Assembly: GCF_027497215.1 (NCBI RefSeq)
Contig: NZ_CP114904.1
Coordinates: forward strand, 2,440,001 to 2,504,000
Length of the DNA stretch: 64,000 nt
Source: Micromonospora sp. WMMD812
GTDB lineage: Bacteria; Actinomycetota; Actinomycetes; Mycobacteriales; Micromonosporaceae
Direction: 5' to 3'
Each line of letters begins with the position of its first letter. Within the stretch, counting starts at the first letter, position 1. Shown here piece by piece: positions 59,143 through 60,612 of this stretch. The notes beneath the pieces were generated by a model, which saw only the letters and a list, made by a program, of their open reading frames with translations, made no database searches and was not told the DNA's origin. The translations under genes were made by a program, and so were the position numbers.

Positions 59143-59973
59143 TCAGGCGGAGTAGCCGCGGCTGGTCATCCAGTTCGCCAGGTCGATGGTGGTGATCCAG
59201 TACGACGGGAGCGCCGGGTTCGCCGAGTCGGCGATCTTGACGGTCCGGCCGTTGTCCCGGTAGCCGACCACGGCGATGTAGTGCCCGCCCGAGAAGGAGT
59301 GCCAGCCACCGTTGGTGTCGGTGGCGTCGCCGACGATGTTCGCGACCACGCCGCGCCCGTCGGTGATCGCGTTGACCACGTCGGCCTGGAGCTGGTCCAT
59401 CTGGGCCGGGCTCGGCGCGTTCGGGAACATCCGGGTCCGGTACGGGTTGCCCTTGACGACGGCGTTCAACACGCGGGTGGTGTCCTCGGCGGAGTTGGTG
59501 CCCATCTCGGTGGTGCCGAGCTGGGCGGCCAGGTCGTCCTGGCTCCGGTCGACGCCGGCGGCGCTGAGCGCGTTACGGGTGGCGGCCGGGCCGCAGTAGA
59601 AGTAGGTCGTCTGCGCCTGGTAGTCGTAGTCCAGGATCTTGCTGGCCGGCGGCTTCGGCGGCTCCGGCTTGCGGGTCAGGTCCGGGTCGGCGGCCTTCTT
59701 CGCGGCGGGCGACGCGCTCGACGACGGGGCGCTGGTCGACGGGGAGCCGCTGGCCGAGGGGGTGGTGCGCTCCTGGCCGCGGGAGGCGACGGTGTCGCTG
59801 CGCAGCTCGGCGACGGCGGCCGAGGCCTGCTGGGTGGCGGGCGCGTCGTCGGCGGTGCTGAGCAGCGCGCCGGTGCTGGACGCGATCACCAGCGCCGCGG
59901 CGGACGCCGCGACGACCTGGAACGGACGCTGGGTGGCGAGACGGCGAAGCTGGCGCTTCAGGGTGTGCTTCAC
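59143..59973 (-). CDS. Secreted C39-like cysteine peptidase under c-di-AMP riboswitch
   Basis: This 276-residue exported protein has an N-terminal signal or anchor (FQVVAASAAALVIASSTGAL, about residues 18-37), a Ser/Pro/Thr-rich linker (about 60-110) and a C-terminal papain-like C39-type domain. The catalytic Cys is in TYFYCGPAATRNALS, the His in SGGHYIAVVGYRDN and the Asp in KIADSANPALPSYW. Exported C39-like proteins of actinomycetes are thought to act on wall peptides, but no substrate is shown here. GTG at 59973 follows GGAGG. Its leader of about 420 nt contains a c-di-AMP riboswitch, a small ORF and a hairpin. Confidence 0.85.
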   Translation of the reverse strand: MKHTLKRQLRRLATQRPFQVVAASAAALVIASSTGALLSTADDAPATQQASAAVAELRSDTVASRGQERTTPSASGSPSTSAPSSSASPAAKKAADPDLTRKPEPPKPPASKILDYDYQAQTTYFYCGPAATRNALSAAGVDRSQDDLAAQLGTTEMGTNSAEDTTRVLNAVVKGNPYRTRMFPNAPSPAQMDQLQADVVNAITDGRGVVANIVGDATDTNGGWHSFSGGHYIAVVGYRDNGRTVKIADSANPALPSYWITTIDLANWMTSRGYSA

Positions 59974-60083
59974 AAGATCCTCCACGGGCTCAGGGGGAGA
60001 GCGGTGCACCGCGCCGGAGCCGGGACATGGGCAGGCGCGACCGCGCGGACGTCGTCCGCGGGTGGTGGACCGCTCAGGGGAAG

Positions 60084-60101
60084 CGCCCGGTGGCCCGGGC
60101 G
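60084..60101 (-). terminator. Hairpin in the peptidase leader (candidate expression platform)
   Basis: CGCCCGG and CCGGGCG pair perfectly around a four-base loop, 20 bases past the small ORF and about 110 bases before the peptidase start. It is a candidate riboswitch-controlled terminator. Confidence 0.45.
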
Positions 60102-60120
60102 GAAAGGGCGGCTGCCGGGA

Positions 60121-60207
60121 TCAGCTCGCCGTCACGGGACGGGCGAGCGTCGGCACCGCGATGCCGTGGAGGGGCGGGGACCAGCGGGGGATGAAAGGGT
60201 GCTGCAC
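60121..60207 (-). CDS. 28-residue leader ORF between riboswitch and peptidase
   Basis: A GTG-started ORF of 28 codons (VQHPFIPRWSPPLHGI at its start) has AAGGAG ten bases upstream and begins 17 bases after the riboswitch aptamer. It ends before the hairpin described above. It may be a translated leader peptide that couples ribosome position to folding, or simply chance; the ribosome-binding site is the main support. Confidence 0.35.
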   Translation of the reverse strand: MQHPFIPRWSPPLHGIAVPTLARPVTAS

Positions 60208-60223
60208 GAGGATGGAACTCCTT

Positions 60224-60353
60224 CCGACACCGCCTACCGGGTTAGCTGACGGATTCGGGCGGGAAGATCGCCCTACCGCGGGCTGTGGCTCGCGGATTCA
60301 CCCCGGACGTACTTATGGGTCCCCGGCTCGTGGATCACGATTAGGCGGGTCGG
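60224..60353 (-). promoter_or_regulatory. c-di-AMP riboswitch (ydaO-yuaA class)
   Basis: On the minus strand the aptamer shows the conserved blocks of the ydaO class in order: GAGCCGGGGACCC, then GGGGTGAATCC, then CGGTAGGGCGA, and finally CCCGAATCCGTCAGCTAACC. The P1 helix pairs CCGCCTA with TAGGCGG (60342-60348 with 60230-60236). In actinobacteria this class binds cyclic di-AMP and usually turns off wall-remodelling genes; here it precedes the C39 peptidase gene. Confidence 0.92.
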
Positions 60354-60397
60354 CGCGGCGTCGCCTCTTGCGATCGATTACCGCACCGGACGGGCCG

Positions 60398-60426
60398 ACA
60401 CTACTGGTCGGTACTCACCCTGCCAA
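60398..60426 (-). promoter_or_regulatory. Promoter TTGGCA-N17-TAGTGT for the riboswitch transcript
   Basis: On the minus strand a near-consensus -35 (60421-60426) and -10 (60398-60403) are 17 bases apart, placing transcription start near 60391, just ahead of the aptamer. This is the best housekeeping-type promoter in the window. Confidence 0.7.
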
Positions 60427-60612
60427 CCCCATCTCACCTGCGTAAACGTCGATCATGGAAATCTTTTCCGTGCGTACGGACACTGTCGTGCCTCAATGGG
60501 ACAGGCAGTTCTCGTGGCACCCGAGGGCGACAACCGGACGGGTCGTCGGCAACCTCGCCGGAATCGGCCCGGAATTGGTGCGCCCTGTACCGGCTGACCG
60601 TTTCCACCGATC

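Follow-up and report, generated by a model that had tools for sequence, protein, structure and literature searches.

The C39-like peptidase gene on the minus strand of the window (the whole 64,000-nucleotide stretch of DNA analysed, from a genome of 7.13 Mb on a single contig) lies behind a predicted c-di-AMP riboswitch, with a short upstream open reading frame (uORF) between the two. The best explanation of this arrangement, to which we give slightly better than even confidence, is a c-di-AMP OFF switch in which the translated uORF would act as a relay between aptamer and peptidase. The aptamer, a uORF start placed behind its own Shine-Dalgarno sequence (SD1), the keeping of the uORF frame within the genus and the complementarity, again within the genus, between the uORF and the Shine-Dalgarno sequence of the peptidase (SD2) can all be read from the sequences. 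The features of the locus are the following:

60398..60426, minus strand: promoter-like TTGGCA-N17-TAGTGT (TTGGCA at 60426-60421, TAGTGT at 60403-60398), seen in the sequence, with too low a score for the consensus scan
60216..60357, minus strand: predicted c-di-AMP (ydaO/yuaA) riboswitch aptamer, matching RF00379 over its full length (model positions 1-134)
60262..60266, minus strand: loop CTTCC, candidate anti-SD1 (pseudoknot partner), complementary to SD1 and suggested by loop-tail covariation
60218..60225, minus strand: SD1 of the small ORF, GGAAGGAG, within the aptamer match, seen in the sequence
60121..60207, minus strand: small uORF of 28 codons with GTG start and TGA stop, recurrent in genus leaders and with frame-keeping length changes
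60164..60172, minus strand: CCTCCACGG inside the uORF, candidate anti-SD2, a 9-bp perfect complement of SD2, paired in the MFE and centroid structures
60084..60101, minus strand: GC hairpin CGCCCGG-GCCA-CCGGGCG, 3' of the uORF stop, seen in the sequence, with no U tract; absent from the earlier note on this DNA
60044..60060, minus strand: perfect hairpin CGCGGAC-GAC-GTCCGCG, seen in the sequence and present in the MFE fold
59979..59987, minus strand: SD2 region of the peptidase, CCGTGGAGG, seen in the sequence, with its GGAGG predicted to pair with the uORF
59143..59973, minus strand: C39-like, probably secreted cysteine peptidase of 276 aa (PF13529 match, invariant Q/C/H/D, model pLDDT)

The earlier note had claimed the order promoter, aptamer, small ORF with a good ribosome-binding site, perfect hairpin and peptidase, and the sequence bears this order out. 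The covariance-model check that it called for returned a significant RF00379 match at 60216-60357 (minus strand) with 90.9 bits, where the gathering score is 38 (whole-window E 5.1e-20), and this is the sole Rfam match at gathering score in the 64 kb. Core and stems are conserved, merely two columns of the alignment to the model being marked as non-standard pairs, and by this covariance-model test the element is a member of the RF00379 c-di-AMP riboswitch class. A DAC (DisA-type) domain is encoded in the window genome. No sigma-70-type promoter was found in 59900-60500 by the consensus scan, TAGTGT falling below the limit with 3/6 consensus bases. A TTGGCA-N16-18-TAnn(G/A)T pair recurs at a similar distance in 37/58 genus leaders, and 20 of the 21 other genus leaders carry TTGGC followed by a different last base (by eye).

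Six RF00379 matches occur in the window genome. By Pfam, their targets include NlpC/P60 (L002), a transglycosylase-like protein with LysM (L005) and two C39-like proteins (window and L006); the secreted-looking targets L003 and L004 gave no Pfam match at E<=0.001. Within the genus, 59/61 genomes match the C39 protein at E<=1e-70, and in the family RF00379 was found in 76/81 genomes and the C39 protein in 42/81. We examined 91 C39 loci (window, L006 and L008-L096, the weakest C39 protein matches being left out); RF00379 lies upstream on the same strand in 32 of them, spread over 11 genera, and is absent from the DNA examined at the other 59, some of which are on cut contigs (L086). At class level, 2/118 genomes match at E<=1e-10, namely the window genome and one of its genus. 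C39-like peptidases are thus a recurrent neighbour of RF00379 in the family, and therefore the presumed c-di-AMP regulon is extended, as the earlier note had proposed. The second C39-like paralogue of the genome (L006; G000:C1:1589530-1589676 and downstream) has a weaker RF00379 match of 44.3 bits and a 36-codon uORF that stops 19 nt before the peptidase start, with no excess of uORF:SD2 pairing. Separately, a divergent pair of c-di-AMP riboswitches, ~200 nt apart, was seen at G076:C14:216901-217033 (minus) and 217240-217375 (plus).

Direct and spaced arrangements were both found behind this aptamer. Among 40 non-C39 loci, hand-picked among the RF00379 matches listed for the family, a long ORF stands directly behind the aptamer in 39, and 23 of these 39 are NlpC/P60; direct here means that any ORF of at least 100 aa begins between -4 and +19 nt, and for a few of them (L165, L174) the frame may be wrong. 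The single spaced leader of this sample, L191 (G043:C6), has an ORF behind it that looks lysozyme-like by eye. In C39 loci with RF00379, a short ORF directly follows the aptamer in 29/32 cases and the peptidase itself in 3/32 (L038, L045, L087); L051 is ambiguous, since another ATG at the aptamer end begins a frame of 355 codons that reaches into the peptidase. In the spaced C39 loci the peptidase starts 19-401 nt after the stop of the short ORF, and a start codon is found at +5 to +10 after the aptamer in 29/29 spaced leaders vs 4.2 expected from shuffles. Since the promoter recurs and the start codon exceeds this expectation, the placement of both is more than chance. The window itself does not have the direct translational platform of C. 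glutamicum nlpC, its target CDS not being directly behind the SD of the aptamer.

Seven orthologues were examined in genus g44: four are spaced, two are spacer-less and one (L210) is without the aptamer landmark. In the two spacer-less loci (L206 and L207, from genomes G258 and G257) RF00379 lies upstream of an ATGA overlap, in which the TGA of an 8-codon uORF is contained and the ATG is the peptidase start. This overlap supports uORF translation, and not merely uORF RNA, as the useful input. In L140 the uORF runs on into the peptidase frame as a fusion (an out-of-frame length case). Such loci also bear on whether the peptidase escapes the riboswitch altogether, either with an aptamer that regulates the small ORF alone or with a promoter of its own. 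The good SD of the peptidase and its distance of ~240 nt from the aptamer would suit such independence; the linkage of aptamer and C39 in 11 genera, the three direct loci, the two ATGA loci and the single uORF-frame fusion all argue against it, and we hold it to be very improbable. A TTGnC/TAnnnT pair is found in 0/57 spacers vs 0.58 expected by chance, an absence that weighs little because of that expectation.

In the relay that we propose, c-di-AMP, once bound, would cause the aptamer loop CTTCC to pair with GGAAG of SD1, and no ribosome would then load on the uORF. Comparison of 76 aptamers points to such a pairing: the length of loop-tail helices averages 5.26 for true pairs vs 4.94 (sd 0.08) for shuffled ones, with 0/300 shuffles reaching the observed mean (CTTCCGTC:GACGGAAG is one example). 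Taken alone, the 40 non-C39 loci give 1/300 shuffles and the 32 C39 loci 28/300, the latter not significant.

The uORF is preserved as a reading frame within the genus. Landmarks were located by regular expressions; 3/61 genus loci (L118, L122, L151) without the aptamer landmark were dropped, the G093 match was left out and the uORF start of L129 was placed at the normally spaced ATG. Of the 58 genus leaders with the aptamer landmark, 57 contain a short ORF (14-28 codons), and in 47/50 the distance from its start to a conserved landmark is divisible by three (8/58 leaders lacking that landmark being left out of the frame test). When changes of uORF length were placed on a tree of C39 domains, the frame was kept in 10/13 events (p=0.0016), and the controls gave 1/11 for the distance from SD1 to the start and 9/44 for the spacer. 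Within the genus the uORF is a leader ORF with an SD and a conserved frame. No selection on its peptide was detected: pN/pS is 0.91, column shuffles give a null of 0.93 (sd 0.18), and the values for the two alternative frames are 0.96 and 0.85 (44/57 sequences over 25 codon columns; 601 pairs with an identity of 65% or more, 250 of them used for the null). Windows of the C39 peptidase gave 0.40-0.70 (250 random pairs, no identity filter). We rejected a selected uORF peptide because the pN/pS lies at the null mean. Under the proposed relay, the reading frame and the nucleotides of the uORF would matter and the peptide sequence would not.

These nucleotides include CCTCCACGG, which is exactly complementary to the CCGTGGAGG of SD2 (p=0.003 with uORF shuffles, window). 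The MFE and centroid structures of the window leader, whose fold has a z of -5.0 (0/200 shuffles), pair 60172-60164 with SD2, and in this fold bases at the uORF start pair with the start codon of the peptidase and with nucleotides after it. Among 56 genus leaders (L147 left out), a perfect uORF:SD2 helix of at least 7 bp covers GGAG in 46, the other 10 having fewer than 7 perfect pairs. Mean pairing probability between GGAGG and the uORF is 0.94 in these leaders vs 0.34 with shuffled uORFs, and it exceeds 0.5 in 55/56 vs 14/56. Among the genus leaders this helix is for the most part conserved and does not covary, and because the genomes of a genus are related, the shuffle tests overstate independence. 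Complementarity of 9-10 bp in different letters was found in L033 and L077 (g44) and in L042 (g22). In g44, SD2 reads GTCGAGGT, and ACCTCGAC lies upstream of it inside the uORF in 4/4 spaced leaders (L204, L205, L208, L209; L204 is the same locus as L077, and L208 the same as L033); L077/L204 and L205 have several possible uORF starts, and ACCTCGAC is inside the uORF when L204 and L205 are read from GTG.

In the second step of the proposed relay, the untranslated uORF RNA would pair both with SD2 (through CCTCCACGG and CCGTGGAGG) and with the start codon of the peptidase; a domain of ~230 nt would thereby be closed and the peptidase left untranslated. The earlier note had not taken up the possibility that the small ORF and SD2 together make up the expression platform. 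At low c-di-AMP, ribosomes would traverse the uORF, disrupt the uORF:SD2 pairing and free SD2. In the model, SD2 is still paired at 0.76 with the uORF masked vs 0.97 unmasked, so that in silico the ribosomes would free it only in part.

The pairing was also sought in 25 further leaders (24 from outside the genus and L006). Its probability exceeds 0.5 in 17/25 vs 7/25 with shuffled uORFs (Wilcoxon p=0.0085, uncorrected for relatedness), four of these 17 (L006, L015, L019, L059) being roughly equalled or surpassed by their shuffled uORFs, and the pairing is not predicted in the remaining 8/25 (L011-L014, L025, L034, L047, L057). When SD2 sequences were dealt to other leaders in a swap test, duplexes were weaker, 0/200 swaps reaching the observed mean energy and 5/200 the mean run; this test preceded the hand-setting of C39 starts in eight family loci, and the start of L029 is doubtful. 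With strictly one leader from each of 11 genera, p was 0.28 for run length and 0.15 for the corrected best per genus. Counted by genus, pairing probability is higher than with shuffles in 7/11, lower in three and equal in one (p=0.053). Thinned and full leader sets, which include several leaders from some genera, gave p=0.041 and 0.007. As a modelled structure, uORF:SD2 pairing is well supported for the genus of the window and for g44, and is not established family-wide; a leader sequestering the downstream SD is predicted for the window and its genus, and is not significant over the 11 genera. Conserved structure in the spacer, sought with a plain alignment fold, is weak (-4.5 kcal/mol). The spacers of L011-L013, ~300 nt long and without predicted uORF:SD2 pairing, have an inverted repeat directly upstream of SD2 (by eye).

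A different use of the same uORF would be Rho polarity: with translation of the uORF blocked by c-di-AMP, the uORF RNA, rich in C and poor in G, would lie exposed as a rut site and termination would occur in the spacer. Over the 60 nt behind the uORF start, the mean C-minus-G skew is 0.22 for 28 family leaders and 0.25 for 57 genus leaders, and in the genus the skew lies above the 95th percentile of 60-nt stretches of the window in 50/57 and above the 99th in 36/57, a comparison made without a matched set of 5' leaders; the anti-SD2 stretch accounts for part of this C-richness. Two Rho_RNA_bind matches in the window genome and the failure to find a U-tract terminator in 59900-60500 (0 terminator-like sites) are compatible with Rho, which would also cover the genera without predicted uORF:SD2 pairing. 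It does not, however, predict the uORF:SD2 complementarity, and the relatives with an ATGA overlap have no spacer in which termination could occur. In the available text of PMC9960051, moreover, regulation by the S. coelicolor c-di-AMP riboswitch is described as Rho-independent. We consider Rho polarity rather unlikely, if the more serious of the termination models.

The other such model is a transcriptional switch through hairpin terminators in the spacer (60101-60084 and 60060-60044), the uORF being incidental. Both hairpins are located after the uORF stop, an inverted repeat like that at 60101-60084 is present in most of the 12 genus leaders inspected (by eye), and premature termination has been reported for S. 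coelicolor rpfA in the available text of PMC10117811. The 60 nt after the uORF stop have a mean fold z of -0.73 in 57 genus leaders, a weak excess of structure, and just -0.33 in 29 family leaders. The hairpins are without a U tract, and no intrinsic terminator of a Bacillus-type expression platform was found behind the aptamer at the window. Preservation of the uORF frame and the start codon in every one of the 29 spaced leaders speak against an incidental uORF, and a hairpin terminator appears improbable. The relay through the translated uORF remains the reading that we prefer.

The presumed target of this relay matches PF13529 (Peptidase_C39_2) with 68.9 bits vs a cut-off of 24, and its best protein matches are Micromonospora proteins. 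Residues Q121, C127, H231 and D249 are invariant in 23 aligned sequences, and we take these conserved Cys, His, Asp and Gln to be catalytic. By eye, the peptidase has an N-terminus resembling a signal and a linker rich in Ser, Pro and Ala. It is probably secreted. In its modelled structure the C39 domain has a pLDDT >90 from residue 111 (mean 75.7 overall) and resembles papain-like folds; the best PDB match is the phytochelatin synthase Alr0975, and further matches are C39 domains of ComA (TM by target 0.71-0.77) and the pseudomurein endoisopeptidase PeiR (0.48-0.49). By sequence, no PDB relatives were found at E<=1. By analogy with other riboswitch targets and from this resemblance of fold, the peptidase may act on the envelope or wall. 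In Micromonospora and its relatives, the presumed c-di-AMP envelope regulon would gain a papain-like, probably secreted peptidase.

In the literature searched, we did not find a C39 peptidase as target of a ydaO/c-di-AMP riboswitch (older target lists may name one), a ydaO riboswitch in Micromonospora or, including the available text of PMC8632094, a uORF relay for a c-di-AMP riboswitch. The window thus holds an RF00379 member whose target class and expression platform we did not find described there. According to the available text of a 2024 study, the effect of riboswitch-associated uORFs on expression had been unaddressed until then (PMC11260477).

The proposed relay has elements in common with several known systems. 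In translational attenuation of the erm type, translation of a leader ORF controls access to a downstream SD, and the signal is given by drug-stalled ribosomes on a specific peptide; here, by contrast, the riboswitch would gate initiation on the leader, and peptide selection was not detected. Closer by aptamer class is the actinobacterial ydaO/kimA riboswitch of C. glutamicum nlpC, which also has a peptidase target and for which, in the available text of PMC9960051, pairing between a riboswitch CTCC and the RBS and a probable translational OFF control are proposed. The loop:SD pairing predicted at the window is similar, whereas the RBS concerned is that of nlpC itself in C. glutamicum and that of the short uORF at the window, where the target has a second SD and is C39-like instead of NlpC/P60. 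S. coelicolor rpfA and six S. lividans ydaO leaders likewise place c-di-AMP riboswitches before secreted wall hydrolases; unlike here, the six S. lividans entries name no C39-like target and no uORF is described in the leaders of either species, as far as the available text of PMC10117811 and PMC8079986 goes.

The dependence on a uORF can be compared with the B12 riboswitches of M. tuberculosis ppe2 and metE, in which output hinges on uORF translation, ppe2 being coupled through an AUGA stop/start overlap (PMC11260477, available text). Their ligand class differs, most leaders here have 70-401 nt between uORF stop and target, and uORF:SD2 complementarity is not seen in the available part of that description; L206 and L207, in turn, share the AUGA overlap of the ppe2 type. 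There is, in our estimation, an even chance that the window represents a class member working solely via a translated uORF, in which the ligand would gate initiation, the uORF RNA would be the anti-SD of the target, and the ATGA coupling and direct starts of relatives would be intermediate states of the platform. With direct, ATGA-coupled and spaced uORF arrangements behind one aptamer class in one family, the change of an expression platform under a constant sensor becomes testable.
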